This document shows positions 3,831-58,233 of a DNA stretch of 64,000 bases, one piece after another; within the stretch, counting starts at the first letter, position 1, and every line of letters begins with the position of its first letter. The position numbers and the translations under genes are program-made. Where the stretch lies: NCBI RefSeq assembly GCF_037975245.1, contig NC_092579.1:1238501-1302500 (forward strand), given 5' to 3'. The notes under the pieces are model-generated. The model ran no database searches. It was not told where the DNA came from and saw nothing but the letters and a program-made list of their open reading frames with translations. The DNA comes from Apostichopus japonicus. Its lineage: Eukaryota > Echinodermata > Holothuroidea > Aspidochirotida > Stichopodidae.

Positions 3831-4646
3831 TTGCCGGGCATATATTTGCAATTTCGAGCAATGAGCTGGGATTTACGTCTTTGGGGAGTAGGTGGTGATG
3901 CAAACTACTTTTTACCAGGCTACTCCAGGCCATTTCAGCTTGGATGCCCCTTCCAGATGGAGACTATCGATGCAGTCAGAGTGCCCCTCTCACCTTCACT
4001 TTATCAGAATGATGGTGTACTCTTTTTGCAAATGTATTTTTCCAAAAACTACACGCACAGTGGCGTAGCTAGGATTTTTTGAGTGGGGGGGCAATGGGGG
4101 GCTGTTCTTTCTTGTGGGGTGGGGGGGCCGGAGGTTACTATCTAAGCGGAGCGCCACCTTGGTTGGCGCGGAGCGTACAGAGAAAATTTGAGATTTCAGC
4201 ACCCCCCAGATCGCAGGAGATGGCACCTGTGAGGCAAAATAGCAACCAAAAAGATGTGCAACTTTGGTGACAGAAATGCAAAAAAAAGATTTTTCTCTTT
4301 CATGCTGACTGGCCTTGCCAACTCAGCCAGACTTAACTTGAGGGAAGTTGGCATCATTTGTCGTTTCAAGCTGTCAAGGCCTTTCTCCCAACTCAAACCC
4401 CTCTGGGCTACCGGTAGGTTTGCAGGATATGCCCACATGTGGACTTAAATAGCATTAGAGGAAGGGGATGGAAGACTAACACGTATCGATGTTTCGGTAA
4501 TGGTCCACATTGGTGGCTCGGTGCTAATTTGGCCATTTATTGGGTTTCTTGAGGCAGCTGTCATCAGAATCTGGGTTTTTGTGCCAATCGATGACCGATA
4601 ACATGTATTGGTATGTAAATTTCTTCTTCATATATCTAGCAACACT

Positions 4647-4853
4647 CTAAAAACAAATGAGTGGATTTCATTCCATTGGAGTGATCACTCGGCGCACTTC
4701 AAATTAAGAGTGAAATTTATTGGAGTTAACCCTCACTCCTAATATGAGTGAATATAACTCTACTTGGAGTTAAGATTTACTCCAATGGAGTGGAAATTCA
4801 CTCTTATACCGGAATGTGCTCAGTGATCACTCCCATGGAGTGAAATTCACCTA
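4647..4853. repeat. Inverted-repeat (hairpin) element rich in GGAGTGATCACTC
   Basis: The two halves are imperfect reverse complements: the left starts AAAAACAAATGAGTGGATTT and the right ends with the complement of AAAAACATAGGTGAATTTCA. Both contain the palindrome GGAGTGATCACTC or a close variant. The whole could fold as one long stem. No convincing target duplication was found, so the transposon class is open. Confidence 0.5.
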
Positions 4854-5112
4854 TGTTTTTATCAGTACAGTACAGTGCATATCATCATAGACGTACGTAC
4901 GTACGTACTACTTACGTTCGTATATCAGACGCACTCGATACCCACGATACGATACGGTCCTGGAGAAACTATTTCCACTCATCATTTTTTAAGGCGATAC
5001 AGTAGTGAGTATCGAACAGGCACAGCCGCATGTTTGTAGGAATTTCAGAATTCCCAATATTTTATATCTCGTGGGCATAAAAAGTTGTTTTGTGGAATAT
5101 TCAATGACATAT

Positions 5113-5450: not shown

Positions 5451-6301
5451 GTTTGATGCAGGGCCGGATCCAGGATTCTGGAAGGGTGAGGGGTTTGCTC
5501 ATGAAAAATTCGTTAGCGCATCCTAGCAGCCTACCGCTCTGTAACCTCACCGCCCAAAAAAATTCGAACACCACCTCAATTTTGAAACTTTTCGGTCTGA
5601 AAATTGAGATCGTAAGGCATATTTGGCACGTGTAGCACGCGTGCACACTATTGTTCATTGGACGGAAAAGACACACCTGGATGACTTGTGAGGATAACCG
5701 CTTTTCTGACGTCCTACATATTTAAAATTGGCGTTTAATTTAATTATTTTTTTCTCTATTTTTTTCTCTCTCTTTTTTATTTTTGGCCAAGAGCAGGGGG
5801 GTCCGGACCCCCTGGACCCCCCCTGGATCCGCGCCTGCATATATTCATTTGACTCGAGGCAATATATGAAAACCTGATACCTCGGCTCAGTACAAACGGA
5901 GCCAATCTTTTGATAGATTGTTGCGCTAGGTGGAAGCACTGAACATATTTTCAGCAGATATCGATATCGCGCAGCACAACAAGGTTCGTGGTGTGTGGTC
6001 GCAATTGTCGCATCGACCATTGCCATGCCATGCTGTGTGACCATTCTCATGATTACTACAGATATTGTATTATTCTTATTCTGCCAGATGCAGACGAGAT
6101 AATTGTGTAACTCTATTTCCCAAATTATTGAACAAAAAATATAAGTGAATCGCACTTATTTTTATTTTTTTACAACATTTATTTTACAACATTCCCAGTG
6201 GGGGGGCCAGTGGGAGGCCAGCCTATTTCATGGGGGCCTAGGCCCCCAGGCCCCCCGTAGCTACGCCACTGATCACGCATGGGGCCCTTTCCCTCGAACG
6301 C

Positions 6302-15300: not shown

Positions 15301-18300
15301 GGGGTGGGAGCAGTGGCGGAGCTAGGGGTACTGGTCAAGGGGGGCGAGAATGGTCTGTAGGGGCGCTTTCGACACTATTTAAGCGGAGCGCCACCACAGG
15401 TTGGCGCGGAGCGTACAAACAATTTTGAGTAAAGATACTTCCTAGATCGCCGGAAATGACCCTTTCCTGGCCTTGCTAATTTGCAGATAAACGAAGAATA
15501 AATAGGTGTCATCGCCAACAAAATGTGACCAATGTCAATAGGTAGATGAGAGCGCAATAAAAAAAGTAAATAATCGCGAATAAGTAAAAAGTGGTAAAAG
15601 CTGAAAAGGGCGCCAGCAGTCCATTTGAGCCGTCAGGGGGGGCATTCGCCCCCCGTGACTATATGGACGCTCCGCCACTGGGTGGGAGGGCGAGGGTAGA
15701 GGAGGGGGCAGTTAGCCAAGAGAGTCATTGTACTACCAAAAGAGCCCAGTCATTACACTGACCACAATTTTGTTCTCAGTGATTCCTTGAGCCTGTTCAA
15801 ATAACATGCACAACTAATTGCTTGAGAAGGTATTATTGAACCCTTAGAATTTGTAATAAAGACAATACCATAGCTCACAAAGATGATTATAATGCACTTT
15901 ATGTTAGTTGTTTTTAATTCCCTGTTTGGCATTTTGGAATCTCTAACCCCTTCTATAATTTGATTGCTTTCAATCAAAATTCTTGATATTTATGTTACAT
16001 GATAAGGAATTATCCAGGTTGTCATGAAATGATATCTTTGTATGACTTCAAGTGTGATGTGTGTGGAGTTGAGTGATGTCTTCAAGTGTGATGTGTGTGG
16101 AGTCGAGTGATGTCTTCAAGTGTGATGTGTGTGGAGTCGAGTGATGTCTTCAAGTGTGATGTGTGTGGAGTCGTGATGACTTCAAGTGTGATGTGTGTAG
16201 AGTCGAGTGATGACTTCAAGTGTGATGTGTGTGGAGTCGAGTGATGTCTTCAAGTGTGATGTGTGTGGAGTCGAGTGATGACTTCAAGTGTGATGTGTGT
16301 AGAGTCGAGTGATGACTTCATGTGATATCTTCAAGTTAGCAAGATGTCTTCACATTTATCTTCATGTGTTGTTAATTGATATCTTCAAGTGGTACCTTCT
16401 ATTTATGAAGATGTTTTCATGTTGTCCTAATAGGATGTCTGTGGTGTAAGTGATGTCTTGAAGTGATGCATTTGGTTTGCTGTCTTTAAAGTTATTTTTC
16501 CAGTGATCTGTGTGGTGTATAGGGATGTCTTCAAGTGGTACCTTCTATTTATGAAGATGTTTTCATGTTGTCCTAATAGGATGTCTGTGGTGTAAGTGAT
16601 GTCTTGAAGTGATGTATTTGGTTTGCTGTCTTTAAAGTTATTTTTCCAGTGATCTGTGTGGTGTATAGGGATGTCTTCAAGTGGTATCTTCTAGTTGTGA
16701 AGATGTTTTCATGTTGACCTAATAGGATGTCTGCGGCGCCACGTGATGTCTTCAAGTGATGTTTTCAAGTTGACGTGATATCATCTAAGTTGTTTTTGAG
16801 GGATGTCAAATGACACATTTACATTTCTCCGATTCACACACAGGTGAACCAAAAGATTTCATAGAGATGCTCTTTCAGTCTCGACAAGAAATCAAAGATG
16901 AAGGCAAAGAAGACATGAGTTTGATAACAGAGGCTCATATCAGACAGACAGTGGTAGATATATTTGGAGGTAAGGATCTCCAATTATAAATATTTCCTTT
17001 GAAGAGTAAGAATATTCATGGAAGGACTAGGCAGAGGAGGCAGGTAGAGATTAATCTTCCAGTTGGTTTGTCTCTGTCCCCCCATCTTTCATTCTAACAT
17101 GATTGCCTTCCCTCTATCTTCATTCTCCTTCAATTTCCAACTGGGGAGGTTTCTCTTAGTCCATAGTTATGGAATAGAAACAATGTTAGCCTGCGATAAA
17201 TCTCGAATTTTTCTACAGAACAGTTGCAGTAAAAATGGTTTTGTTGAATTGTCTGAACTTTTTTAGAAATCACCATAATGTCAATCGCTTTAAACATTGC
17301 ATCCAATTGTTTTGACTCACTGAACCATGTGTGACTCCGTAGTAAGTATTTTAACTGAAAATTGGATATCTATGAAATGTGTATTTTATTTGAAAAGCAG
17401 CTGTACAGTATGGACTCAGCACTTTGTGTAAACTGTTTACCTTTTTTTAAGGGGGGGGGGGGAAGGGAAGGGGTTATATTTATGTTCTCATATTCTTAAA
17501 GTAAAACCACAAGAAACAAGAAATAACAAAAACAGAAAAATTAAAATCAATCTTTCAATTGATATTCATCATTTAGATGTTGTCAGATGCTATTTAATGT
17601 ACATAAAAATTCTTATGCAGTGAAGTAGGCAAGAGTTTTATTTAGAAATTATCTATAGATTTGGTATTTTGTGTCTTGTAAATCTTCTCAACGACTTCAT
17701 TTTCTTGACTTTTCAGCCGGTACGGATACGTCCATTTTTACCTTACAATGGTGTACTGGACTGATGGTGCAATATCCAGAGGTGCAAGCCAAAGTAGCCG
17801 CCGAAGTGGATCGTGTCGTGGGAAGAGATAGGCTGCCCTCACTTGATGACCGTGAGGAGCTAGTATACACCACAGCGACCCTGTACGAGGTTATGCGATA
17901 CAGTACCTTAGTTCCATTAGCCGTGCCGCATGCTACATCGGCAGATGTGGAGCTTGGTAAGATGTCATTGCCAATTATGTTACAACTGGATAGCGGCTTG
18001 GCAGGAGAATAAATTGATGATGATGTTGGCTCCTCAGTGCATGCCTCAATGTTATTATTAATCCATACATTCTAATAAATCAACCTAACCATGTTTAATC
18101 CTAATTTCAGTTAAAGAATTGATTGCCCTTTCGTGACCTTCCAAACCATTTGTCCTTGACAAGTTTGTAATGTAATCATGCTAAGTAGTCTAGCGGTCTT
18201 TAGCCACTTGCATTCATGAGCCTCAGATTTTTAAAGTTTCATTTCTCAAAACCTTAAAGAAGTGGTAAAAACATCCAACCTGCACTGGTAGCAGTGTTTC

Positions 18301-18773
18301 TGATGGTCTACAGCATATCAAAAATGTTATCCTTTGAAAGTTCTCGCTATGCTAATCAGGGAGTGCTTTATGCTTTCAATAGGACAGCGCAAAATGTGAT
18401 TTTATACCCTCTCAGTAAAAGATTGATTTGCTTTCAATGCATTAAAATGTTCATCAGATTTATATATGCCTTTCTACAGCAGTGACATATCTCTTCACAT
18501 TAGCACACACGCCAATGGACATAGACGTATCATATAGGCCATAGATATTTCCGTCCAAAAATCTTCACATCTGGTGACCCTTTTGGCATTCCATGCTTAC
18601 TGATTGCTTCACAGGTATATGTCTTCTGTTTTTCTGTTAATTCGTAGGTGGTTATACCATCCCTAAAGATACTTGGGTTTTGGTGAACATCTACTCCATG
18701 CACTATGATGAAAAACTCTGGGACGACCCTAAAAAATTCACACCAGGTAATTTTTGTTAGCTATATATATATT

Positions 18774-18804
<31 letters not shown>

Positions 18805-18995
18805 CTAGTATATATGTACAGAACTAGTATTGTTCGATACAGGTGACAAACGCCTACAGTGGAATGGGACCTTCCTTACCGGTTTTGAATCTCTGGACAT
18901 ACAATCAGTGTCCATAGCCTAGTGGTTAGGGCATCAGCATATAAAGCCATAGGCCTGGTTTCACTGTTCTGGATTTTCCAACTCACTACAAATTC

Positions 18996-19029
<34 letters not shown>

Positions 19030-19089
19030 GTCTGATGATTGCACAATGCGTGAAACTCTGAGTAACAACTACTAGTGTTCCACTAGTCT

Positions 19090-19155
<66 letters not shown>

Positions 19156-20048
19156 TGTAAATAAATAAAGAACAACACACCAGAAAAATTCCACTTCACG
19201 ACCGTTTTCGTCCTTTTGTTCATGAGTGGTCATCATGGAGATCCGAGACCATTCAGACCAATGATATATTTTTCACACATGTAATTTTTTTTTCGACACC
19301 CAAATTTCCAGTGGGAGGGCGACAAGCTTTCATGGGGGGCTGTCCCCCCTCCCACGCCCCCCCTTGGCTACACCACTGAGCAAGTGGTATGACAGATATA
19401 TAATAAATAAATAAAGAACAACACACCAGAAAAATTCCACTTCACGACCGGTTTCTCTGTACGAGTCTACATATGTTATGATTGTACAGAGAAACCGGTC
19501 GTGAAGTGTCGTGAAGTTGCAGCCAGTCAACATTCATACAATTATCTCTGCTTTGGACTTTTATTTGTAGAACAGGTTTTTGTCCGTCTCGTAACTAAAT
19601 TTAACATTACAGTATATAAATAATTCAAAGCTTGTTATGATGATGGCATTATGTTCATAGTATTAGTTTACAAACTGTACAGAGGTAAACAGATGTTCTA
19701 AAGTTTGGAGGAGGCAGCTTAAAGTTTCCACTCCAGACCACCCTCATGTAACATGGTATGATAAAAATATATCAACTCTTTTTTTCCCCGGCAGAACATT
19801 TCCTGGATGAGAGCGGAAAAGTTCGTCTCCACCCAGAAGGTTACATGCCTTTCTCTACCGGACGCCGTGTCTGCCTCGGTGAATCGGTTGCCAAGGCTGA
19901 GCTCTTTCTTCTCTTTGCGTGGTTATTCCAGCATTACAAGTTCAGCAAACCTATCGGGCAGGAAGAGAAAGATTTTTCAGAAGGAGATCCCCAGGCTACA
20001 GTGAATATGCTGAAGGATATAGAAGTGGTTATAGAAAAACGCTTTTAA
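9339..20048 (+). CDS. Cytochrome P450, CYP2 clan (CYP17/CYP1-like), nine exons
   Basis: Predicted membrane-bound monooxygenase of the endoplasmic reticulum, using NADPH-P450 reductase. Exons: 9339-9498, 10073-10255, 10567-10660, 13019-13183, 15060-15268, 16844-16969, 17717-17956, 18648-18746, 19795-20048. All junctions are GT..AG and the phases agree, giving an uninterrupted 509-aa frame, normal for the family. Visible landmarks: N-terminal anchor (about 13-30), proline hinge PPGPKGWP (40-47), helix C WKLHRK (134-139), I-helix AGTDTS (313-318), ExxR as EVMR (370-373), PEHF where PERF is usual, and heme loop FSTGRRVCLG with Cys452 as the heme ligand. The WKLHRK motif and the C-terminal half recall CYP17 and CYP1, and nine coding exons recall the CYP2 pattern. 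The start ATG (AGCAGCATGG) is the first in frame. All catalytic residues are intact. The substrate is unknown; steroid or xenobiotic oxidation is inference only. Confidence 0.93.
11148..11488. mobile_element. TTAAAGG-type MITE (T2/Kolobok-like), copy B
   Basis: It lies in P450 intron 3 and is bounded on both sides by TTAA (11144-11147 and 11489-11492). The inverted ends are AGGCATTGAAGACTCGC and GCGAGTCTTCACACCCT. It has no coding capacity. The uninterrupted GTCTAAT site shows the state before the hairpin insertion seen in copy A. Confidence 0.8.
11500..11775 (+). pseudogene. LINE reverse-transcriptase C-terminal fragment
   Basis: Translated pieces read YDHWRRRGNSLILATIQG, then GRRGRRKKGWLDNIKE, then AAFERIV. 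This is the order of the C-terminal tail of many non-LTR retrotransposon ORF2 proteins (GxRxRGRPRxxWxDNI followed by a DR..W-like segment). It carries an in-frame stop after NIKE, is 5'-truncated and lies between two MITEs in the P450 intron 3. The clade cannot be decided from so short a piece. Confidence 0.5.
12416..12770. mobile_element. TTAAAGG-type MITE (T2/Kolobok-like), copy C
   Basis: It is bounded by TTAA at 12412-12415 and 12771-12774, with the same inverted ends as copies A and B. It lies 0.9 kb from copy B in the same P450 intron and in the same orientation. It has no reading frame. Confidence 0.8.
13830..14620 (+). repeat. 282-bp AGGTCA-rich satellite in P450 intron 4
   Basis: About 2.8 units repeat with a period of 282 bp, each built from two diverged halves of about 141 bp. 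Shared phrases include AAGCTTGGGCAGA, GATATCTCAAG and CTTGTAAACA. Each full unit has a direct repeat of AGGTCA with one base between, at 13,875-13,887 and 14,157-14,169; at 14,439-14,451 the second half is TGGTCA. Confidence 0.8.
14767..15047 (+). repeat. Tandem duplication just upstream of P450 exon 5
   Basis: Two copies of about 140 bp (14,767-14,909 and 14,910-15,047) share GATGTCTACC, GGTAAA, GAGTAAATTA and AATAAACTTTCTGT. The second copy runs into the acceptor used for exon 5 at 15,060, so the intron end has been duplicated. Confidence 0.7.
15311..15680. mobile_element. hAT-like MITE, 370 bp, 8-bp TSD GGTGGGAG
   Basis: The ends are CAGTGGCGGAGCTAGG and GACGCTCCGCCACTG, flanked by perfect GGTGGGAG duplications (15303-15310 and 15681-15688). 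It sits 42 bp after exon 5 of the P450. It is an internally deleted relative of 2,658-3,237, with the module at 15,374-15,420. Confidence 0.9.
16037..16318 (+). repeat. 34-bp minisatellite in P450 intron 5
   Basis: About eight units follow the pattern TGATGTCTTCAAGTGTGATG then TGTGTGGAGTCGAG, with T/A and G/A variants and one unit short by two bases. Confidence 0.9.
16385..16760 (+). repeat. 146-bp tandem repeat next to the minisatellite
   Basis: About 2.6 units have GGTACCTTCT-type starts at 16,391, 16,537 and 16,683, an exact spacing of 146. The unit still contains GATGTCTTCAAGTG, so it probably grew from the same seed as the 34-bp array. Confidence 0.85.
18759..18800. repeat. (TA)n microsatellite
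   Basis: An alternating TA tract in P450 intron 8, directly 5' of a truncated SINE copy. Confidence 0.9.
18820..19030 (+). mobile_element. tRNA-like SINE, 5'-truncated copy ending in (TA)n
   Basis: It shares the body TTGTTCGATACAGGTGACAA, CCTACAGTGGAAT, TACCGGTTT and GTCCATAGCCTAGTGG (an A-box-like block) with the longer copies at 54,329 and 57,881. It ends in (TA)n and lies in P450 intron 8. Confidence 0.6.
19025..19071 (+). ncRNA. Candidate type I hammerhead ribozyme
   Basis: The order of parts fits a hammerhead: stem I 5' strand TAGTTGT (19025-19031), core CTGATGA (19032-19038), stem II region (19039-19051) with GCA/TGC pairing round a CAA loop, GAAA (19052-19055), a minimal stem III ACT-CTG-AGT (19055-19063), cleavage-site A at 19064 after GT, and stem I 3' strand ACAACTA (19065-19071). 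Flanking (TA)n tracts on both sides could lengthen stem I. Against it: the first stem II pair is U-U instead of G-C. Hammerheads with such short stem III are known from Penelope-like elements and retrozymes of animals. Confidence 0.5.
19204..19378. mobile_element. hAT-like MITE fragment in P450 intron 8
   Basis: The body matches 6,600-6,802 (GAGACCATTCAGACCAATG, GACAAGCTTTCAT) and the end is a degraded GGCTACACCACTG. It is bracketed by a direct repeat of about 48 bp (19,157-19,203 and 19,402-19,449) containing AAGAACAACACACCAGAAAA. Confidence 0.5.
19438..19508. repeat. Perfect 25-bp inverted repeat, 21-nt loop
   Basis: The arms 19,438-19,462 and 19,484-19,508 are exact reverse complements and contain GAAACCGGTC on both strands. 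That decamer resembles the GAAA plus stem III plus cleavage-site part of hammerhead ribozymes. No CTGATGA core lies at the right distance (only a degraded GTTATGA), so this is not called a ribozyme. Confidence 0.7.
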
Positions 20049-21200
20049 TTGCATGACAGCAGCAAATGTTTGTGGCTGCTATTTTGGAAATGGAAAGTCT
20101 ATATGATGATGTGGAGAACTGAATGAATTGTACCTTCAAAAATATATTTGAAGAACAGTAAATCATATTTTAAAGCTATATTAAAAAGAAAATTAATTGT
20201 GGGACATTGCATCGATTTGATTAATTTGAAAACATTTAAGAGACTCTTCATTTTGTTTTGTTTTAATTAAATAATTACCTCTCTGTTTTGAACTTTATAT
20301 ATACATTTATATTTCGGGTGAAGGGAATTTAATATTACAATGATATATTACAAAATTGTAGAAGAAACTGAAGACAAAGAAAATGACCAAATGCACTACC
20401 ATAGCTGATGCAGTGGTGACAGTACAGGTACAAATCCATAGTTGGATCAAAGGAGGGGCTCCCAAAGAGGATCCAGGGGGCCTCAGCCACCTCATTTGAC
20501 AGTTTTGTACAAAAGCGTAGCCCAATATAATTTAAGTCCAAGCAAGGTACATAGTGAAAATACTTAGCACCCATCGAGTGTGTACATTGCTATTTTTTTT
20601 ATTGATCTTTTTTCTTTATGCACCACTATTAAGTATTAATTTCAGTATCTGCCGATTCTTCTCAATACATCTCTCGGGACCCCATGGCCACTTCCCAAAA
20701 TTCTGGAACCTCAGCTGTAACAGTGGGGAACTGTGTCGATAAAATTGCTAAGTACAATTTGACAATCTGATGATGGTTTTCATCAATAGTATTAGATCAA
20801 GTCTTTGTATATGTTACGTTGTACCACTCACATATGGATTGCTCTCTGGGAATCAGGAAAATGCAGGTAAAACAATTTGGGCCTTATGTTTCAACTGCTT
20901 AAAGTTTTGATATTTTTGTATTGATTTCCTTCATAATTATGCATTTCCAACTTTAATATGGCAAAATTATATGACATTATTTTGTTTTCACTTCATAAAT
21001 TAAATGACAAATGTTGTATTTCTACTACAGACATGTTAGAGGTCATATGAGTTTGATTAATACACCTAATAAACAAGTTTAATATCAACTGTTTAGTTCT
21101 TTAATGAATAGTGGTGCCCCACATAGGAAGTCCAGTGAACCTTGCTTCTTTAACCTTAAACCAGTTATGGTTATGGTACTTAAATTTCATCATACCTCCT
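20049..21200. other. P450 3' flank and spacer
   Basis: This follows the P450 stop. ATTAAA at 20,180 and 20,266 are possible polyadenylation signals; no AATAAA was found close by. I see no further exon or clear transposon end up to about 21,200. Confidence 0.35.
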
Positions 21201-23249
21201 ATAGTCAGGTCGATATATGGAAAATACCCCCTCAACCCCCAGAAAATTGCTACAAAAGGTTTTTTGAACTCCTGGGAGCAGGAATGGCAGTGACAATTTC
21301 ATGCTCCACTCATTATTCTCTGACACCTACAGAATAGATATCTATGGTATCTGTTGGTATTCATCAAAGAAAATCATTGGATAGGGTTTCAAATGAGCTT
21401 CTGTTGGCTTGCAAGTTGTAGAAGTCAGGTCAAAATACAGTTTAACCCCCCAAAAATTGCTATAAAAGGTTTCTCAACTGATTTTGGTAGGGTTTAGTAT
21501 GCTTTATAACATACTAAAAGTTTACCAAGTAGGACCCCCGGAAAAGTGTTTTTGTTTCAAAATGGCGTCCAAGATGGCCGCCGAAACCTCTTAATGATCA
21601 TAACTATGTAACTATTAACTCAAATTTGATGATCTTGGTGTCTTTCCCTATGTTTTTGGGGGCAAAGAACAAATTAAAAATGAAAGTGGGCCATTATCTA
21701 ACAGGTTGAGGGGGGAATTTTCCATATATTGACCTGAAGAATGTGTCGAATTGGATCCAGGTAGTCTTTGAGGACCTGCCGAGATATCTTGACTGTGACA
21801 AGAGGATCGATATTTTGTGGGAAGTCTCCCTTGGCTTCAAAGAGGCAACACCGAATTGGCAGAGGATGATGCATATCTTGCATCAGGAGAGCAGCACCCT
21901 GGGCAGTCGTCAGTCAAATTCTTGCATATGATCAATATGTACTCTGGAGACAAATCGTGCATTGTGTCTACAATAGACTTTGTTTGCAACCTTGCCATGA
22001 AGCACAACCTTCCCACCATTGTAACTTTTGACCAGCCCTTGTATTGGAAGGCTGCCGAAATCCTCATTGGTGCACCACAAAGTAGTCACCTAAAAGGCAT
22101 TGTTCTGATGTTGGGGTGTTTCCATACACTTATGAACGTGATGGGGGCCATAGGAACTCTCATGCAAGGGACATACTTGAGACTGTCTATTGAGAAATTT
22201 CAGTTGTGCACATGATTACAGGGAAAGCTGTCCAGAGGGCTTTGCGAGGCCATCTTGTTGACAAGTCCCTACATAGCCAGCTTATAACGGAAATGGCCAG
22301 AGACGATCCCGAGATTCAGACACTGTTGGATCAAACCGAGGAATTGTACTCCTCCCTTCTTAGCGGAGAGACGACGCTAGGAGATGCTGCTTTTTCTGAG
22401 GTTTTGATCCAACTCGAGACAGTAATGGAGAAGAAGAAATCTGAACTTGCTCAGACCTCAAAGACCATCGAGTTGTGGCTGAATTATCAGCGTATGGTTG
22501 GCATGGCAAGAATGTTGATCAAGGCGGATCATACTGGGTCTTGGATGATGCATTTGCAGGCAGTGTCCAATTGCCTAACTGTCTTTTTTGCAGCTGGGCG
22601 CTTCAATTACCTGCGATCTGCTCATTACTACCTGCAGCAAATGAGGAACCTTGTGGAAAAGCACCCAGACGTTTATCGAAAGTTCCTTGATGGTTTTTCA
22701 CGTTGTTCATAGGAGCAATCAGTGCTGGGCAGGGCTTAGTAGTGATCTTGTCATTGAACAAACGTTGATGAGGTCTCTAAAGAGCACTGGTGGTCTAACT
22801 CGCGGCAGTGGGATGACCGAGGACATACGAAACCTTTGGACCTTATCTGCACCTGTAACATCCGAGTACAACATCAGGATGCAGGATTTCACAAACCTAA
22901 CCTATACTACAAGTCCGCAACACAAAGGCTCAACTGAGGCGCGCATCAAAAGAGATGCATCTGATTTCGAGAAAATTCAGATAAAGCTTGCAGCCTGCTC
23001 ACCCTTCACATCTGATCCTACTCTGAGAAACATTGTCAACGGGATAGTGGCTGGGCCAAATGAGATTGTACGTGACTTTGAATCGGTTGGGAACAAGATC
23101 ATTGAAGATATCATCGGAAATTCTGCATTTACTTAAAAATTCTTCTTCAAATACTTACAAATTCAAGCGGAAAGACAGAGCCCAAGCACTTGGGAATATC
23201 TCTGCTGTGAAGATTGCTCCTGATCGTACCATTGATCTTGCCCTTCTGT

Positions 23250-23522
23250 CAAGGGCGGCGGAACCGGGGGCACAGGGGGCACGTGCCCCCCCCCCCACTT
23301 TTCCTCAGGTTAAAAATGTGCCCTTTTTCTACATAAAAATTGAGGTGTCTCAAGTTAGCAAGAGGCCTGGGATTCCAGGGAACCAGAATGGGAAGGGCCG
23401 TTTCCGGCCATCTGAGGGGTTTGTAAAACCAAAAATTTTCTTGTAAGCTCCGCGCCAACCGATGGTGGCGCTCCGCTCAGATAGTCGTGCATACAACTTT
23501 GCTAATCCTGGCTATGCCCCTG
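23250..23522 (-). mobile_element. hAT-like MITE inserted in the element gene
   Basis: The ends are CAAGGGCGGCGGAACC and CCTGGCTATGCCCCTG, with the conserved module inverted at 23,441-23,486. It interrupts the broken gene right after its KRKDRAQALG segment. The 8-bp flanks do not match, so the boundaries are approximate. Confidence 0.55.
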
Positions 23523-23756
23523 ACTTTTAATGAACTTCTGTGGGTCAAACTCAAAGCAATTTCGAATGGAAAAAAAAAATTGTTAAGATATTATCAAGAA
23601 ATGAACTATAATTAGGAAGATTCTTACATTAGCAACTAGCATGATTTCACCTCATTTTGTCTCAAAAGAAAACTTGTTCCATGTTTCCCAATTTGCACAT
23701 TGGATATTGCAGTGCTAGTATGCATATTTTCCTTGAGGAGGGGGGGGGGGGCGTTG

Positions 23757-23965
23757 ATGGAGCGATTTAAATCGATGATAAGTAAAATAAATCGGTGATA
23801 TGTAGAATGAAACTGGTATATGTCGATTTAAATCGATGATATGTAGAATGAAACTGGTATATGTCGATTTAAATCGGTAGAAGTCGATTTCAGCTGCTGG
23901 AAACTGGTATAAGTCGAAGGAAACTGGTATATGTCGATTTAAATCGGTATAAGTCGATCTCCCAT
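23757..23965. repeat. Minisatellite of ATCGATTTAAATCGAT-like palindromes
   Basis: Irregular units of GTCGATTTAAATCG, GATATGTAGAATGAAACTGG and GTATATGTCGATTT repeat across about 200 bp within the decayed element. Confidence 0.75.
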
Positions 23966-25489
23966 GATTTGAGACTGATGGCCCGCCATAGAGATCATCT
24001 ATTTCCTTCCTGACGCAAACAAGCAGTCAAAAGAACACAGAGTGTATAACATTAATCTGTTGAAAAAAATTTTAGGAGACGATGTGTGCAATCAGTTGCT
24101 CTTTGTGCATGCCTACTCAGGATGTGATTCTACTTCAAGGATTTTCGGCAACGGAAAAAGTCAGCCTTCCAAAAATTAGTGACATCTGATCCTGTCATGA
24201 AGTCCTGTGCTAGTGCATGCATTCTTCAAAACAAATCTCAATAGCACATATCAGATCTTGGCGAAGACCTGATGGTTGATCTCTTTGGTGACAAGTCTAC
24301 CGACACGCTATCATCACTGCGCCATATCATTTTCACCAAAAAAGAACGGCTTCCCCCAGGATCACCTGCAACATGATTCCATAGCCAACGTGTGTACTTT
24401 CAAAGTATGGTATGGAAGGGGATGGCAAATGAAATGAACCCAACTGAATGGGGATGGAAACAGGAAAATGATCAGTTAATTCCAATTATGACCCAAAACA
24501 ATGCTACGCCTGACAAACTCTTGAAAATAATCCATTGCAACCGTTCGAGGGGACGCAAATTCTCTCGATGCAGCTGCAGACGCTATGGACTCCCCTGCAC
24601 TGATGCATGTGGCCCTTGCCAAACTGAAAACTGTGACAATCCTAACAACACTCAGGAGGTCGATACTGAGGAGGAGGAGGATGACACTCAAAACTGAACG
24701 CTCTGAAACTTATTGTATGGAAAAAGGTGTTTGTGCATTAGATGATGGTGGGCAGCTGAAGGTCATGAGTTCAATTTCATAATGATTTAACAGTTCAGTG
24801 ATATCCAAAGTTGTCTTAATGTGTTCTTTGCCCCCAAAAACATAGGGATAGACACCAAGATCATCAAATTTGAGATGATATTACATAGTTATGATCATTA
24901 AGAGGTTCCGGCGGCTATCTTGAAAAAAACTTTTCCGGGGGTCCTACTTTGGTAAACATTTAGTATGTTATAAAGTACACTAAACCCTACCAGAATCAGT
25001 TGAGAAACCTTTTGTAGCATTTTTTTTTGGGGGGGGGGGGGTGGGTAAACTGTATTTGACCTGACTACTACAACTTGCAAGCCAACAGAAGCTCATTTGA
25101 AACCCCATCCAATGATTTTCTCTGATGAATACCAACAGATACCATAGTAGGTGTTCAGAGAATAATGAGTGGAGCATGTAATTGTCACTGCTATTCCTGC
25201 TCCCTGGAGTTCCATTGAACTTCTCAATCAGATGGATGTGAGCGAAGCTATTTCTTGACAAACTTCAAGTAGCTTCTCATTTGAAATGTAGTACATATAT
25301 AATAGTTTTCACCATGAAAATCTGTACTCCCTATCCTCTTCCTGTAAAACTGTTGTCTTATATGGGACAGCAGGTAGTATTCTGCAAGTTCTAAAACACC
25401 CTCCAGGATTAATTACTTCATGTGTTTCATGTCAACACGATACACTGAAACAATAGTTTTTATTTAAGCCAAAATTAATCCCAGTAAAC

Positions 25490-30180: not shown

Positions 30181-30934
30181 GTGAAAACCTTCCTTTAATG
30201 TTTGTTCAGCAGAAGTCTCTCTCTACTGTAAATGAGTCTTTACTTATTTTACCTATTGCAAACCCACAAAAGAAAGCCTATATATCACTTTCAAGTTTCT
30301 CAAATAACTGAATGAAACACGATAACATAAATATATTCTGCTTCCACTTTCGGTGGTTTTGTGTGTGTGAGTAAGCTATCAAGAATATGCTTGGTCATAA
30401 TTAAGTACTTTCATTTAATCCTTCCTTCAAACACAGGTAGGTGCCTTCAAACTTTCACTTTTGTCAGCTTTCAATAGACGTGTTGTTTGTTATTACTTTG
30501 GCATAGTACTAATGTATGTAATACTTCCTTAAACACAAATGTGTGCATTAGTCTCTGACTGCCTCTGGACTTCTACCGTGTCATAACATGAAGCGGTGTA
30601 ATAATATGTACTTACAGGTATGCTGCCATATTTTGACACATGCATTGTAGAGTGTAACGTATTGTACATCGATATATAGACTAATCTTACGATCTCTATG
30701 GAAAACTACAAAGAAGAATTAGGGAGCTATAACGAAGTGACTTCATACAGGAAGAATGTTTGGAATAGCTGATGATCGTCGCAGCAGACGGCTATACTTG
30801 CACGAAGATATCAAATTACGGCCTCCTATTGTCTGATTTATATTGAAGATATATGAATGAATTTCAAGAACATTGATATTTCACGAGAAGTTTGATTGAA
30901 TTAACCAATATTTGGTAGAAATCGACTTGGCATC
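30181..30934. other. Upstream region of seven-TM gene 1
   Basis: No exon was recognised. The stretch 30,700-30,870 (GCAGCAGACGGCTATA and following) resembles sequence upstream of the pseudogene at 50,167, so part of the 5' flank was duplicated along with the gene. Confidence 0.35.
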
Positions 30935-33923
30935 ATGGAAGACGGACCATGGCCACCTATCGTCTGGTTTATAATGAAGATATCAGCTATATTTTATCAT
31001 AGACAAATTGTCGGTCAGCGAAGGTGTATGTCATGTGAGAAAGAATTTTACAAGAATGCCCGACGAGTACGCGACACCGCTAGAACTGTATCTGACGGCT
31101 ATCGGCGATCCCGTAAACATGAAGACTTTGATCTAACTTCCTGCTACGAGACGGTTTATGATGATAGCAGCATAACACGGGAAGGATCATCTAGTGAATG
31201 CTTGGCATGTGAATCACTTTGGTGGGATCGTTATGGTCACGTGATGAAATACACAGAAGAATCGATTGGTAAGATATACTTAACTGTATGGAAATTGCCA
31301 CTATGGAAATATCGGCTATCTAAAAATATATTGGGATATGTAGGTCAGTATATAGAGTGCGCACGGGAAGGGAGGGGCTGAGAGATCTCCAGGTGTGCTA
31401 CCTCATGCTTGCCCCCATCTCGTATGATATTAATTTAAAAAATTCAAGGAAGAAATTAAAATAAAATATAAAATAAAAATGAGAAAGTAAATGCTAAACT
31501 GAGAAAACGAAGGTTATTTCTTTTGGCATATAGGTTTATCAATAATATATAAGATGGCATTAAATGGTCTATGACAAACGTTTTACACGTTAACGCTTTC
31601 ATATTTGCACTCCCAAGGTGTGCTTGACTGTTTAAATTTCACTTTATTCCATTCATTATTTTTCTGAACAGGTTTTATAATCGTACTGTAAATTACCGTG
31701 TAGTTACAATATAGTGATTTGCAACACGGAAAAGTTTATAAGATACAGTGTGCCGGTTGCAAGATTAAATTTGTGTGAGAAGCTGTGTAAAGTACCCTAA
31801 AGTGCTCCCAAATATATATCAATATATGAACCGGAAAAATGAGATAGAAACTAATGAACTCCGACCCACCCCAAAGTACACAACCTACATAGGATGAGAA
31901 AGTGTTCACATAGAATGGTAACGAGACACTGTCAGTAAAGGAAGTTTCATATATACTGCATAAACTTTGCTGAGTTGTTGATGCTGTTATTATGGGGATG
32001 GGCGTGGGTGGTGGGAGGTGGGTGGTGGAGTGGGTGGTTGCTGTTTGTCAAACTGGGGTTCGAGAAGGGGGCTCTGATAGAAACGTTGGCTTTTATAAAG
32101 TGATGCAGAGTACTGACTATAGGAGAACCCGTGTGAATTTGCTTGGAATTCTTGTGGCACGGACGTGTTAACCTGACCCCTACGGTTCTTTGCGAAGTCT
32201 CGTTTTGGCGATAACTGTTTGACCCTCAGTAAAAACCTGACATCATTTTGTTTCTTTTCAGGTCTCAAGTATTGGAACCACCCAGGAAGTTGGTTCGTCT
32301 CCATTCTTATTCTGACTATCATAATTATTCTTGTGACTTACGAAGCTGTCGTACTTGAAAGAAATTATTTCGCTAAACATGATCGCATCGTGAATTTGTT
32401 GTCTTACATAGCATTCTACTCTCCACTAGTCGTCTTTCCGTGTATGACTGTCTATTCGAAGGTTAGAAGTGCATTCTCTTGGAGGGGAAGAGGAATATGG
32501 GCTACAACTCTAAATGCTCGCTTTATTGTACAGCGCCTCCAGTTTTTGGATCTTGCTGTCAAAGGTAAACGCTTTATCTTCTATCTATATCTCTTTTCCC
32601 GTCCACTCCCCACCACCCCACCTCTCCACCACTGCGTTGATTTTGTTTCCGTACTGGATACTACAGGATGCTTAGTGAAATAATCGGTACTATGGAGCTC
32701 TTCATGACACAGGTATGCGTGCAGCTGTACAGCAGCATTGTTGTTCTTGCCTTAGTATGCATGTACCGGGGCTCATAGCATCTCTTCACGACACAGGTAT
32801 TCGTGCAGCTGTATAGCAGCAGTTTACTCGTGACTGAGTATGTATGTAAATGGAGCCTCTGACAAAATCTTCATGACGCAGGTATGCGTGCAGCTGTACA
32901 GCAGCAGTTTATTCTTGACTGAGTATGTCCCATACGTTTACATTTGGCACACGTGGCGTCAAAAGTTTACGAGGATTCTAGACGTAAATTAGAGATAGTT
33001 AATGATGTCACTTAAGTATCTGATTCTTCTTACAGCTGATAATCAATGTTCTTTCAAAAGAAGCGTTTTTAAGGTACCATCAAGTGTAGTATTTCAATAT
33101 ACAGACATGGTTCCTATTCTTTACATGGTAATTTGTGCAAATGAACTTATGTGCCATGCCCCCACAAATTCTCTCAATACAGTAATACCAACATTCTTTC
33201 TCTCTTACAGGAGTACCGGCGAAACATTTCCTTGTCTTATGTCTCATTTGGCCTGTTTTTGCTGCAACTTACAGAACATATATTAAGTTAGGAATTAGGA
33301 GACAGACTGACTTATCTGATAAAATTAGTTGTCTAACCGTGGCTATTGCTGAGCTTATATGGGGTTGCTTTATGTTCCAGTTATTTCTGATAAGAATATC
33401 TTTTCAAAATCATTTTCAGCTTCTTTTGAACTTTCTACACAAATTTGAAGGAGAAACAGAATTATGCCAACAAGTAATAAGACGCGTGTTGGTCGATTTT
33501 AAATGTTATCAAAAATGCGTAGCTGCATATATGTCTGTCATGATACCCGCCTGTATCTTAGGCGCTGCGACTAGCATCTCGTGGTTCTACATGGTCAACG
33601 ACATGGTCAACGATGGTAGCAGAGACCACGAGTGGTTTGTAATGGAGAAAAACGTGAATTTTATGATCTGGTCCGATGTCGCCATGTTCTTTTGTCTTGG
33701 GCCTCTGGCTATTGGAGGATTCAACGCCAACTACATATGGGAGAACTTTCAGATCAGCGTGATCTTCATGAAACGCGATGAAGAGAGGAAATTCTGGGAT
33801 GATATCATTCGTTTTCTGAAGCAAGTCCAAGATGACGTGCCACTGATCTCTTTAACCACAGTCCTAGCGATGGTGGGTCTTTACGTCACTGTGGAATTTG
33901 GAAAGCAAGTAGTTGACTTTTGA
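30935..33923 (+). CDS. Seven-TM receptor-like protein 1 (possible gustatory-receptor-like)
   Basis: Exons 30935-31268, 32262-32564 and 33211-33923, both introns in phase 1, give a 449-aa frame. The first about 111 residues are hydrophilic and rich in Cys, Arg and Ser. Seven hydrophobic segments follow: about 122-143, 155-176, 218-238, 253-275, 318-339, 361-383 and 422-443, with a charged loop (276-317, with ELCQQVIRRVLVDFKCYQKC) between segments 4 and 5. The C-terminal segment ends GLYVTVEFG. Length, inferred inside N-terminus, seven segments and a TY..QF-like last helix fit the insect gustatory-receptor superfamily, known to have members in echinoderms and hemichordates; that placement is inference. 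Against it: no diagnostic QF and the introns differ from the usual phase-0 C-terminal ones. AATAAA lies at 34,495. A close paralogue is at 43,127. Confidence 0.75.
32700..32940 (+). repeat. ~85-bp tandem repeat in intron 2 of seven-TM gene 1
   Basis: Three units share CAGGTATGCGTGCAGCTGTA and CAGCAG, starting near 32,707, 32,791 and 32,876. One diverged unit is kept in the paralogue's intron near 45,455. Confidence 0.75.
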
Positions 33924-41337: not shown

Positions 41338-43126
41338 CATATATTGTGTCACTTTCTAATTAGGATCCTAAAAGGAAAGTGTTTTTTAAATGATCTGTCA
41401 TTCTCCCGCATCTCATTTATGCAGTGCCAATCTGCAAAAAATATAATGATAGAATTGTAAAGTTTTTTAAGTACACGTCAAAGATTCTTCATTTAGATTA
41501 CCGATATACTGTATGAAGGAAACCGTGAATGTCTCTGTTAGAGCTGAATTTATAAGAATGGCCACCAAACATTTATGATGATCAGAATCACCTCTTGCAT
41601 ACCTCCCTATAAGGAGCCTTAACGTGTAATAAAACAGAAAGCTAAGAAATCCTAATATTTTGACAAAATACAGAGTAGCCTACAGTTGTTGAAGAATTCC
41701 TTTGTTCATAGAGCTGCAAGTTTTTGTCAATTCGATAAACTGAAATGAATTGCTCTAGTTTTTATATATTTTTTTTTCTATGAACAAACATTTTGTATAG
41801 GTTGTTTTAATATTGCATTTTCTTAAATTCTCCTTTTTATAAAATATTTGTATATTTATACTGGAATATATAAATTGATATTGAAATTGAATTGACCCCA
41901 GTGCACTCCTTTATGAGATCCTTCATTCGCCATTCCACAACAAACATTCAGCCCCCCCCCCCCCACCCACAAACACACACACACACGCACCCAGAAATGA
42001 GTTTCTAAAACGACGTTGTTTCATTCTATAACAATATCTGTTTGCAGGCAACACGTTATTATCTAGAGTACATGCATTTCCGCGCTTTCATCGATAGCAC
42101 TAGATACGGTACTGTATTGCATAATGTGTAACGTCACGTGTTACATGAAATATCACGTGATACGTGAAGTAATATATTATCATTGTTATGATTAACTCTG
42201 ATGAACAGAAATCGTTCTTTTGTGAATTTATAACAGCTGTATTTGTAAAACTCAAAACAAAGAAAACAATAGAAAAAGATTGAATCTGGTGGGGCTGATG
42301 GGCACAAACGTCGCGGGACAGTGCGGGGACATGTGAGCGTGATTTGCGGGGGTGGGGTAGGGAGGAGGAAAAAAAGTCAAAAGTCACGACAAAATGAATC
42401 CTCTGTGATTTCCTTACCAGAAATAACAGTAGCTTTATGTTTTCCAAAATATAGTATTTGTTATTATGAACATAAATCTGTTATATTTTCAATTTTACTT
42501 TTTTTTTTTAAATGAAGAGAAAATGTTAGTATAACAAACCAGAACAAAAAGACAAATTAAATCAACTAAAAATAGACAAGGGGTAGTTTTCATTGACGAA
42601 TGGGCACTTCTAATTTAAGAAATGTGGCACTTTTCAGGTTTTACTCAAAAGTGGTAGCTGTTAATGCCGTTGTTCCCCTCATGTTCCCTTCGAATTCGCC
42701 CCTGAAGTATTACTTTCAACTTTCACAAATCACTGAACGGAGCAGTTTGTGATTTAGTTGTGTTACGGTTGATTGCAATTCTAAGTTTTGTATTTCGATA
42801 TTAGTCTCAGTTCTGGTTTCTTTTTTATGCATGTTTAAACCTTTCAAAGGAACTCTTTTGTACTATTTCTTTCACATGACCGTCAATAATACTTCCTTTA
42901 AAATTCCCAGTATGAAAGACATATATAACGAAACTTGCGTTAATATTGAAATGTCATTAAACAGAGTAAGAACGTCTGTAGGACATTAGAAAAAATGACA
43001 TTTTAAATTAATTTCGAAAGCATTGATATCAAACGAGATGATTGATTGAGATAACCAATATTTGGTAGAAATCGGCTTGTTATTGGTAGAAATCGACTTG
43101 ATATTGGTAGAAATCGACTTGACATC
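39500..43126. other. Spacer upstream of seven-TM gene 2, with (TA)n tracts
   Basis: No exon is recognised. (TA)n tracts lie at 41,083-41,150 and 41,249-41,336, each followed by the same segment of about 75 bp (AGCATATATTGTGTCACTTT and on), which makes a local duplication. An open frame at 40,163-40,561 has no family features. Just before the next gene, ATTGGTAGAAATCGACTTG is repeated three times (43,062-43,123). Confidence 0.4.
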
Positions 43127-46100
43127 ATGGAAGACGGACCATGGCCTCCTATCGTCTGGTTTATAATGAAGATATCAGCTATATTTTATCATAGACAAAT
43201 TGTCGGTCAGCGAAGGTGTATGTCATGTGAGAAAGAATTTTACAAGAACACCCGACGAGTACGCGACACCGCTAGAACTGTATCTGACGGCTATCGGCGA
43301 TCCCGTAAACATGAAGACTTTGATCTCACGTCCTGCTACGAGACGGTTTATGATGATAGCAGCATAACACGGGAAGGATCATCTAGCGAATGTTTGGCAT
43401 GTGAATCACTTTGGTGGGATCGTTATGGTCACGTGATGAAATACACAGAAGAATCGATTGGTAAGATATACTTTACTATTGGTATGTAAGGAGAAACCAA
43501 TCACCATCCCTCTTTGGTGTATGTCGGCTACTGGCCACAAAGATGACGGTACGGCGGGTAAGGTGGGTCAGTGGACTCGTAAGTTTTGTAACCTGTCGCG
43601 GTCAGTGTTCAGTGTTGAATACAAAATATGTCAAGAATATCCAAGAGAAAAATGACAATTAACATGATAAATGATAAATCTAAATAGTGATATAAACGAT
43701 TTTTGTGTAAAATAGTTCAGTTATCATATCATGTCCCGGTAAAAATATAAACTCGTTCACTCTGTCATCTTTGCGCTTGCGACGCGTAGCCTTCTTGCCT
43801 ATATTTAATTGGTTGATGAAGCTTAACGGACGTGTATCGTACAATGTTGCATGGTCAGGACATGGTCAGTAAAGAATGTGACAGTTATCTGCAACATAAG
43901 GATTACATTTTGATGCTGCCTCGAAAATCAGTTTGAATTTCTGCTGCTGTCTTCCTGGGCATGGTGTCCAGTTTTTGGACGATGGTGAAGTTGCACCCTT
44001 GTGATATAACACCACCTTGTACGTAGTAGGTGAACCAAGGTATTCAATTTTCAGTGTATTTTCTAAGTGAGCATGTCTCCACAGCCAACACAGTATTATA
44101 TATAACATATTCTATACCTAATTGTAGTCAGTGCCCCAAGCCGATGAAAAAGTGAACACCTACTTTTGGAAAGAGAGTGATTCATAGCCTATGGAAACTT
44201 TGAGGTGCCATCATAATATTAAGATCTTTCTGTGAATATAGTAGCTAGGAAATGATTAACTTTTCAGATACTATGTTAACAATTGGGGCGGTGGGTGGGG
44301 GGGTGGGTGGGGGGTGCCAAATTCCTTAAATCTAATAAATGAAGAATTCAAGAGTTTTGTTGCAACATGATGAAATGATTATATTTCAAACAACATTATT
44401 TATCACTTAACATATTTCCCCAACTCAACCGCATGTTGACACAACATAATGACTTGCAGAAAATTTAGAGATAAGATCTTGAAATTTTGACGACACCTCA
44501 TGTGTGTGTGTGTGTTTGAAATGCTTCGAACACGGACATAGGAACCTGACTGGTGTAATTTACATACGTTTATAGGTGAAATAATCACATGGTGTAAATA
44601 TATACCAATGTTTTGAACCTGAATATCTATTCACCACTTCTCTCATTTTTTTATTACTTGTTGCATCATTTTCTTCTTTGCAGGTCTCAAATATTGGAAC
44701 CATCCCGGAAGTTGGTTCGTCTCCATTCTTATTCTGACTGTAATAGTGGCTATTATGATCTACGAGATAATAGTACTGGAACTAGCTTATTTCGCTAAAA
44801 AAAATCGCATCGTGAATTTGATGTCTTACTTAGCATTCTACTCTCCACTAGTTGTCTTTCCATGTATGAACGTCTGCTCGAAAGTTAGAAGTGCTATGAT
44901 GGTACCAGGAATATGGGCTACAACCCTAAATGCTCGCTTTATTGTTCAGCGCCTTCAGTTTTTGGATCTTTCTGCCAAAGGTAACGGTTATAAATCAGTT
45001 CTTATCTTCTGTCTTCTGTTGTTTGTTTGTTTCTTTTTTTTTCATGCTTTCACTTTGGTCAGTTTTTCGGTACCATGGAAAAGACTTAAACCCATCAAAT
45101 GCAGTCCACATTTGATTTAAAGGTTATCAAGGTTGCCCCCAAATATGCCAGCAGAAGTTCATTTATAATAATTGTCATCCCATAATCAAATTTCAAACCA
45201 TCATTTTTTACTGCCATTATAAACTTTGTTTTCCACGCTGAGGCTTTAAATTTTTCTAGTTTAATATTCCTGAAAACATTGTGAACATGTAATAAGAATT
45301 CAGAAGCACTAAGAACATATTGCCGGAAACGTTTATTAGTTTAGTTTCAATTCTAAGGTCAATACTGCTGATCTTTAAAATAATGAATAAAATAAAATAA
45401 TGTTGTATTGATAATGTATATGTAATGGATTCTTTAGCCGGTCTATACACGACACAGGTCTAGTTGCAGCTATACAGTAGCAACTATTATCGTGGTTGAG
45501 TGTGTACTCGTACGATGCACCATACAGATCCTTGCACAGCTCTACAGTTTTCATACACCCTATACCTGATCAATATTGCGATCTTACACTTTATATGACA
45601 CAGGGTCGTAATGCAATATTGGTCAAACGGTCAGTGACATCGCTAGACATTTGAAAGTGGTAGGCCAAAAAAGATGATGGAAACATTTGGGAGGGTGGGG
45701 CACAGAATGCGGGTATTGAAAGCTGGCGCCGAAGGTGCGAGTGCATTCAAGTTTCCATAATTATCATAGCTTATATCAGCTCCCAAATTAGCAGCATTTT
45801 GGAGGTGGACGCAAGAAAATTAGGGTCTATAGAATTTTTTAAAGAGGCCATGACATGAAAAATCCAACTAATCAAGAGTAACTTCCTCTGAATCTATGAG
45901 AAAATCTATGTTCAAAACTATCCTCATCACCTTCAAAACATCGAGGACTATTTAGAAATTAACGTTTTAATAATCGCATCCGAAAACAGACCTCTGAAAA
46001 ATGCGATTTCAAAACAAGACAACGATGACGTCATGTTAGGAACACAAGTGCCAAGCCCAGGCATGTACCGGATGCGCGACGAACATACCGTTCCACATAC

Positions 46101-50166: not shown

Positions 50167-50950
50167 ATGAGAACATGGCCTCTTATCATTTGGATTTAAA
50201 ATGAATTGTAGGTGAGCGAAGGTGTGAGTCATATGAAATGGAATATTAACAGGAAATCCTGAGAATAATCGGTAGAAGAGTAATCAATGGGTTATCAGCG
50301 ACCCCCGAATACAGGAGGACTCTGATCTTACATCCTGCTATGAGACGGTTTATGATAACAGCAGCATAACACGGGAAGGATCATCTAGTGAATGTTTGGC
50401 ATGTGTCCCACTTTGGTGGGATAATTATGGTCACGTGATGAAATACATAGAAGAATCGATTGGTAAGATATACTTTATAACAATGGTCAGGTGGAGATAT
50501 AGAATGTAGCCATCTTGTTGTGTTGTATGCATATAATTGGTTAAAAGGATGGTGGTGTATCGTCAACCCAATCATATGTCATGAACCTGGAGTTCCTTTT
50601 CTGCATTTCATTTCTGATGTGAGCTGCATCATTTTCTCCCCCCTACTTCTCGTCTCAAATATTGGAACCATGCCAGAAGTTGGTTCGTCTCCATTCTTAT
50701 TCTTACTATAACTGTGGCCATTATGATCTACGAGATAAAAATACTCATACGAGCTTATTTCGCTAAAATAAAATCTCATCGTGAATTTGTTGTCTTACAT
50801 AGCATTCTTCTCTCATCTAGTCGTTTGTTTCGTGTATGACCGTCTATTCGATGGTCAGAAGTGCATTCTCTTTGAGGGGACCAGGAATATCATGGGCTGT
50901 AAATGCTCGCTTTATTGTACAGCGCCCCCATATTTTAGGCTTGTGCCAAA
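50167..50950 (+). pseudogene. Third, broken copy of the seven-TM gene
   Basis: The exon 1-like part (50,167-50,462) keeps stretches such as GAAGGATCATCTAGTGAATG and the donor GGTAAGATATACTTTA, but has lost the start region and carries frameshifts and stops. The exon 2-like part (50,652-50,950) starts at GTCTCAAATATTGG, but the acceptor AG is replaced (TTCTCG instead of TGCAGG) and the frame is shifted. No exon 3 follows. It is a dead 3'-truncated duplicate of the genes at 30,935 and 43,127. Confidence 0.8.
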
Positions 50951-51339: not shown

Positions 51340-51960
51340 CTCAAGAATACTGCACGGCGCTGCTGGCCCTACATGCTTTCACACATTGTGAACACAACCA
51401 GTGCCTTCCGAGGGAAAGGGAAAGTGAAACCAATCAAAGTGATGCAGAAGCCTCCAAAATTCCAGCCCATCCTGGCAGAGCTTGGACGTAAATGGGAGGT
51501 CACAGATGAGCTGTTTGCTGGTCTGGAAGAATTCACCTGTGCTATCTATGGTCGACCAAGATTCAAAAGCATAGATAAACTTCGGTTCACCCATATCAAA
51601 GAGTAGTGTTGCGATGATCCTAAATTGCATCTTGGTCGCAATGTGGACCTGGCGATGCTACCACCCTGCCGTGGAGTGTTGCAACAGCATATCTGTAGAG
51701 TTAACTACCAGGTCGCTATATGGAGACGTGCAGACATTCCCGTTCAAGACGTTCCATCGCCAACAGATGGACATGGATGGACTCTGAAGTCTGGTTTCCT
51801 GGAGCCATTGTGGGTGGACGGACCAATTCCTCGCCAAGCGCTAGTGGACCAAGTGGAAGTACTTGACCCAAGCTTCAGATGATGAAGATTCTGATGACCA
51901 AGACTCACTACCTGCTCCATCAGAAAGGGATGGCAGTGACAGTGAGAGTGAATTGTAGTA
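51340..51960 (+). pseudogene. Second fragment of the HAFTHC / TTSAF element gene
   Basis: Reading across frames: LLALHAFTHC, then TTSAFRGKGKVKPIKVMQK, then WEVTDELFAGLEEFTCAIYG, a TAG stop at 51,604, LAMLPPCRGVLQQHICRVNY, GHGW, LEPLWVDGPIPRQALVDQVE and an acidic end. It is the part missing from the copy at 21,743-24,697, so the two fragments together outline the C-terminal half of one protein family. Damage here: a one-base shift after HAFTHC, an in-frame stop and further frame changes. Confidence 0.6.
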
Positions 51961-52164
51961 CAGGTGGGAAGTTACATCAGGATAACTGTAAATCTAGAGA
52001 AGTACTTGTATCACATGTAAGTTCTGCATGCCAAGCAGCCATTTTGGAATTCAAGATGGTTGAGCATGTTTCCAACAAAGGGGCCCAGCATTAATATCAC
52101 TAAACCTAGTGAAATACTTGACGATAAAAACATGGCAATGTTTTATTTTGTTTTATTTTTATAA

Positions 52165-52600
52165 TGTTGTTGATCTTATTGGATTCCCTAACTCTGAAAA
52201 CATGGGTTTGTGAAAGTGAAAATAGTTCCAAATGGCGGCCATTTTGAATTTCAATATGGCTTCCTCAGCATAATCTCCCAGTGTTAATGTTGTTATTCTT
52301 ATTGGATTCCTTGACCCTGAAAACATGGGTATAGACACCAGAATTATAACTCTATGTGACTTAAAAGCTGAGTTATAGGTAAAAATAGTTCCGAATTGGC
52401 GGCCATTTTGAATTTCAAAATGGCCGCTGCAGCGCAATGATCCAATGGTTATGTCTTTGTTCTTACTGGATTCCTTGACCCAGGAAACAAGGGTATAAAC
52501 ACCAGAAATATAACTCTATGAGCCTTAGGCGCCGAGATATGGGTGAAAATAGTTCCAAATGGCGGCTATTTTGGAAAATGGCGGAAATGCAGAGTCGATC
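52165..52600 (+). repeat. Tandem repeat with AAATGGCGGCCATTTTGAA units
   Basis: About three diverged units carry TTGGATTCCTTGACCC, GAAAACATGGGTATA-GACACC, ATAGTTCC and the near-palindrome AATGGCGGCCATTTTGAATT. The phrases GACACCA..AT..TAACTATG and GGCCGCC also occur in the arms of the element at 21,265-25,215, so this is probably the subterminal repeat block of the same family. Confidence 0.7.

Positions 52601-54616: not shown

Positions 54617-54684
<68 letters not shown>
54329..54684 (+). mobile_element. tRNA-like SINE with (TA)n tail
   Basis: It begins GTCTGTTCAAAGTATCTCTT and is collinear with 57,881-58,230. The tRNA-like part keeps the B box (GGTTCGAATCCCGGTGGAGG) but lost the A-box half. 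It ends in a (TA)n tract of about 64 bp. Confidence 0.7.

Positions 54685-58199: not shown

Positions 58200-58233
<34 letters not shown>

Follow-up and report, generated by a model that had tools for sequence, protein, structure and literature searches.

A dead cut-and-paste DNA transposon in the Apostichopus japonicus genome, most likely of the AcademX lineage, with 3-bp target duplications and a probable FEN1/XPG-like nuclease region

Target site duplications of 3 bp are typical of the PIF/Harbinger and CACTA-like groups of DNA transposons, while the Kolobok elements target TTAA and the nuclease of the AcademX elements is XPG-like. Within the Academ superfamily, AcademX elements generate duplications of either 3 or 4 bp and AcademH elements duplications of 9 or 10 bp, and the published account, as far as its general description goes, ties this difference to the nuclease that the former encode and the helicase that the latter encode (PMC10045372). 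The element dealt with here lies in what we refer to as the window, the whole stretch of 64,000 nucleotides that was analyzed (C19:1238501-1302500, C19 being contig NC_092579.1), within a genome of 671.6 Mb in 35 contigs. It is a dead cut-and-paste DNA transposon and most likely, at a probability that we put at roughly 65%, belongs to the AcademX lineage of the Academ superfamily, to which it is likened by published description. A gene that had no annotation can now be read as a transposon whose ends are proven, whose duplication length has been measured, and whose product likely includes a nuclease.

The limits of the element are given by an empty site. The copy in the window starts with TAGTCAGG at 21202 and ends with CCTGACTA at 25067, with CTA on each side. 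When its flanks are joined at a single CTA, they match a locus on the same contig, about 58 kb from the window copy (L012), at 92.3% over 1025 columns. Because this match runs without a gap through the junction, L012 represents a paralogue of the site without the insertion; the element therefore comprises the 3866 bp between the two ends, accompanied by a 3-bp target duplication. A second insertion, found on contig C9 (L010), starts with the same TAGTCAGG at 3226, stops with the same CCTGACTA at 6039, and is flanked by ACA on both sides. Duplications of 3 bp are thus present in two out of two independent insertions that have both ends, and these two are the basis for the duplication length. 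A chance match of three bases has a probability of 1/64 at each of them if equal base frequencies are assumed, and the evidence of the empty site is independent of that estimate. The copy on C12 (L011, L038) has the left end, and its right end was not found within 9.4 kb, so that no target duplication can be obtained from it. The empty site, the 3-bp duplications at two independent insertions, and the terminal inverted repeats (TIRs) that the copies have in common together lend strong support to a DNA transposon of the cut-and-paste type. The ends, the duplication, and the empty site likewise support movement by cut and paste with a stagger of 3 bp. An earlier note, made from the letters of the window, had proposed looking for common inverted ends and target duplications among the copies, and these are seen in the window copy and L010.

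The region around the insertion has itself been duplicated. The stretches 16278-21205 and 25065-25478 take part in segmental duplications on C19, with a filled copy (L009) about 58 kb to one side and the empty copy L012 about 58 kb away on the side opposite to L009. The filled copy does not count as an insertion of its own, being a segmental duplicate whose identity of approximately 94-95% extends past both arms. A DNA search with the left end of L010 gave nine matches at no fewer than four places (C9, C12, and two on C19), and one with the gene interior gave six matches at no fewer than three places (C9 and two on C19), both copy numbers being lower bounds.

The inverted arms that first drew attention to the locus are composite structures. 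They span 21266-21677 and 24816-25212 and align at 85% over 427 columns (blastn). Around 250 bp of their 400 bp represents true TIR, and the outer 150 bp or so is host flank, of which an inverted copy sits in the left end. Past 25067, the right arm consists of flanking DNA; the reverse-oriented duplicate of this flank occupies 21263-21423 within the left end, and the arms of L010 are without these outer 150 bp. In left-end alignments, the window copy and L009 share an insert of about 210 bp within the left TIR, absent from L010 and L011, which contains the right flank 25068-25212 in inverted orientation and then, from about 21424, a second copy of the right end. The outer arm also matches other parts of the genome. 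A set of 15 loci (L012-L026) was chosen for this match, out of 26 such places, the remaining 7 of the 33 matches being element ends, and a TIR query matched none of the 15 at E <= 1e-3. The earlier note had seen inverted arms of about 400 bp on both sides of a broken gene and had inferred a mobile element; the arms, the gene, and its three motifs are real, but the ends of the element lie elsewhere, and arms of 400 bp as complete element ends are ruled out by the empty site and by L010 and L011. Long inverted arms, then, can consist in part of copied host flank. The simplest order of events would be insertion, followed by inverted copying into the left end and then duplication of the filled region, with L012 having remained empty. 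In the window as in its duplicate L009, the pattern is that of a right end copied together with about 150 bp of flank, in inverted orientation, into the left TIR, and a possible mechanism for this would be the repair of a break templated by the inverted right TIR.

Table 1. Coordinates of the element, its target duplications, its gene pieces, and the locus at 51340 in the window
Feature	Position	Strand	Basis or remark
Transposon copy, 3866 bp, dead	21202..25067	+	Empty site L012
Left target site duplication, CTA	21199..21201	.	Empty site comparison
Right target site duplication, CTA	25068..25070	.	Empty site comparison
First ~61 bp of left TIR (TAGTCAGGTCGATATATGG...)	21202..21262	+	Similar in L010, L011, and L009
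Inverted right-flank copy in left TIR, foreign to the original element	21263..21423	-	Window and L009 only; like reversed 25068-25212 and L012
Remaining left TIR and subterminal DNA	21430..21700	+	Matches both L010 ends, L011 left end, and window right arm
N-terminal part with FDQPLYWKA, at least three frame pieces	21755..22286	+	tblastn to L010
Middle part, open frame piece	22194..22709	+	Open reading frame, tblastn
Middle part 2 (..LVIEQTLMRSLKSTGGLTRGSGM..)	22645..23248	+	Open reading frame, tblastn
Unrelated DNA replacing the putative nuclease core	23250..23990	.	~740 bp; interspersed repeat and short repeat array
HAYSGCDSTS piece	24021..24170	+	Likened to the FEN1 GTDY (H3TH) motif by eye only
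Piece between putative nuclease and Cys-rich tail	24230..24434	+	tblastn
C-terminal piece with Cys-rich RCSCRRYGLPCTDACGPC	24377..24694	+	Open reading frame
Right TIR, ending CCTGACTA	24816..25067	-	Arm alignments, matching ends
Outer right arm, host flank	25068..25212	.	Similar to parts of 15 other loci without TIR
"Second copy" of the earlier note, possible very distant relative	51340..51879	+	tblastn, shuffle test
164-bp tandem repeats, weak likeness to reverse-complemented TIR	52219..52573	.	Period 164

Between the arms lies a frameshifted gene with FDQPLYWKA, HAYSGCDSTS, and RCSCRRYGLPC parts (Table 1). Its middle, which would encode the nuclease core, is missing from the window copy, retained in L010, and retained in part in L009. 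The stretch that replaces it in the window harbors an interspersed repeat at 23389-23766 that is 91% identical to L038, and a short array of GGAAACTGGTATATGTCGATTTAAATCGG-like units is seen at 23778-23961. The open piece of L010 encompasses 207 residues (4369-4989) and contains the motifs LDGGS, VVFDGY..PSIK..RRGK, SPGDADVDI, and GKDTDLL, with HAYSGCDSTS following after a frameshift. The L010 and L009 copies of the gene are also broken and the copy on C12 is partial, so that none of the four copies, as they stand, is expected to yield a functional protein; for the window copy this follows from its frameshifts and the missing nuclease core.

No transposase was matched when gene pieces were searched in Pfam, and weak Pfam matches of a middle piece to UBQLN1 (E 0.013) and XPC-binding (E 0.014) fell below the cut-off and were taken as chance, as were weak PHROGs matches of the N-terminal piece (E 0.047 and 0.17). 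The Cys-rich tail, which has nine cysteines in the L010 stretch, found no Pfam family at E <= 1 with the window piece; a Tesmin/TSO1 CXC domain was also considered and rejected, there being neither a Pfam family nor a match among PDB sequences at E <= 1. A viral or prokaryotic origin of the gene was similarly set aside, as searches with single-protein queries, whose reach is that of close relatives, gave no confirmed relatives in viral or prokaryote contigs and none in phages. Since the gene pieces have no convincing Pfam or PHROGs model, annotation may overlook elements of this kind.

The second half of the gene, as seen in L010, appears to be FEN1/XPG-nuclease-like, a reading of the residues that has moderate support. 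The acids of FEN1 are found at positions 34, 86, 158, 160, 179, 181, and 233 in human numbering, and the L010 piece has acids at residues 42, 81, 151, 153, 175, 177, and about 234. A FEN1 profile was built from archaeal proteins (120 stretches, 80 of them used, yielding 74 usable open reading frames, of which 68 were kept), and the eight columns in which 97% or more of these proteins have one and the same acid were defined as invariant acidic columns. When aligned to this profile, the joined real sequence has an acid at five of the eight, with the VFDG aspartate, the SEGEA glutamates (which are aspartates here), and the QDYD aspartates in register. Out of 1000 shuffled sequences, none reached five columns or more, 1 reached four, 14 two, and 44 one, and the reversed sequence has an acid at none of the eight. 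The other 941 shuffles were without any acid in these columns, which means that shuffles often hardly align and that the column test in part measures how well a sequence can be aligned at all. Three columns are missed. They are the glutamate after VFDG, which is non-catalytic in FEN1, a second glutamate, and the aspartate of GTDY, and of these the second glutamate and the aspartate lie in unaligned stretches; the first FEN1 aspartate is also unaligned.

By overall score the resemblance is weak, with 2.0 bits for the L010 piece and 1.7 for the joined sequence (HMMER E 0.034-0.04 among 7 targets), and 1.7 bits or more was attained by 5 of the 1000 shuffles. The shorter nuclease piece of L009 scores -2.1, level with unrelated pieces of the gene. 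The nuclease piece matched nothing in Pfam at E <= 5 or in PHROGs at E <= 1, and among PDB sequences it gave a single chance-level match, a GTPase (E 0.62). Its structure, predicted from two sequences, has a pLDDT of 32, too low for the fold to be read, there being too few relatives for structure prediction.

It can be suggested that the N-terminal half, with the FDQPLYWKA region, is a putative transposase of the DDE/D type, which would cut at the TIR ends and join them to a target staggered by 3 bp. The fused nuclease might then trim single-stranded flaps or remove donor strands during excision or joining, and the Cys-rich tail may bind zinc and DNA. An intact relative could reveal what a flap nuclease does during transposition.

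A second copy of the gene had also been claimed at 51340-52600, together with arm-related repeats beside it. That the locus holds the same gene is not shown: at E <= 0.01, tblastn gave no match to it for any of seven element pieces, and when its C-terminal part was aligned locally, 28 of 500 shuffles did as well as the best alignment or better; a match of the 51340 piece to P53_tetramer in Pfam (E 0.23) was below the cut-off and was taken as chance. The repeats, on the other hand, are similar to the reverse-complemented TIR (79.5% over 44 bp, E 4e-5), with none of 300 shuffles as good in this orientation and 58 of 300 as good in the forward one. Because these adjoining repeats are TIR-like, the locus is possibly a distant relative of the element with related subterminal repeats.

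The window contains a number of other features. What appear to be tandem exon copies of a gene for a multi-membrane-pass-like protein are found at 30905-31381, 32177-32683, 33186-33923, 43055-43489, 44623-45120, 47612-48391, and 50276-50509; three of these pieces found no Pfam family at the cut-off, and they look gustatory-receptor-like. A tRNA match (Rfam) at 58080-58152 lies within a repeat stretch, 57990-58221, that is related to 54437-54640 through L012, and this repeat is possibly a tRNA-derived SINE. Reading frames with QARIQGG are present at 5655-6155 in the window and at 5765-5992 in L009, in the latter at the edge of DNA that is inserted in the element, and perhaps represent another repeat family with a common end.

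Several other explanations for the locus can be considered. That a host gene fragment has come to lie by chance between inverted segmental repeats, with no transposon involved, would agree with the host origin of the outer arms and with the segmental duplication of the region, but it is close to refuted by the empty site with its single CTA and by the recurrence of the same ends at a second insertion on another contig. Another superfamily with 3-bp duplications, such as PIF/Harbinger, for which this length is given in the source consulted (PMC2213677), or a CACTA-like group, could in principle have captured a nuclease gene; the pieces searched match no Pfam transposase model and the element ends in TAGTCAGG rather than CACTA, which makes such an origin quite improbable.

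The earlier note had suggested an undescribed type of DNA transposon. The assignment to DNA transposons stands on the empty site, the 3-bp duplications, and the TIRs, whereas a new superfamily finds no support, as the nuclease half and the duplication both match the description of AcademX. A separate, undescribed superfamily with a FEN-like nuclease and a 3-bp duplication would be in keeping with the failure of every gene piece tried to reach a Pfam cut-off, and with the fact that AcademX was compared through its general published description rather than by sequence (PMC10045372). Against this, a nuclease together with a duplication of 3-4 bp is the very combination that the same description gives for AcademX, and a separate superfamily requires a difference from AcademX, of which the present data show none; we regard it as unlikely. 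The more specific form of this idea, in which a superfamily apart from Academ has one protein that joins a transposase of unclassified fold to a FEN/XPG nuclease responsible for part of the DNA cutting, seems to us equally doubtful. The AcademX lineage provides the best fit on account of the 3-bp duplication and the FEN/XPG-like nuclease that would follow a long N-terminal region.

Comparison with known systems places the element as follows. As in the FEN1/XPG nucleases, the catalytic acids would follow one another in the same order and at roughly the same distances, but here the nuclease forms part of a transposon gene, the catalytic glutamates are replaced by aspartates, and sequence similarity is very low. 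KolobokP and the nuclease-bearing Kolobok elements are also DNA transposons with an extra nuclease, and KolobokP has long terminal repeats; these repeats are direct and the nuclease is of the His-Me type (PMC9587614), in contrast to the inverted repeats, FEN-like nuclease, and 3-bp duplication seen here. AcademH would belong to the same superfamily if the Academ assignment is right, but its helicase and its 9-10 bp duplication, as generally described (PMC10045372), differ from the 3 bp of this element, and no helicase family was found in Pfam among the pieces searched. With AcademX, in the terms of its general description, the element shares its nature as a DNA transposon, a duplication that at 3 bp falls within the 3-4 bp range, and what is probably an element-encoded nuclease.
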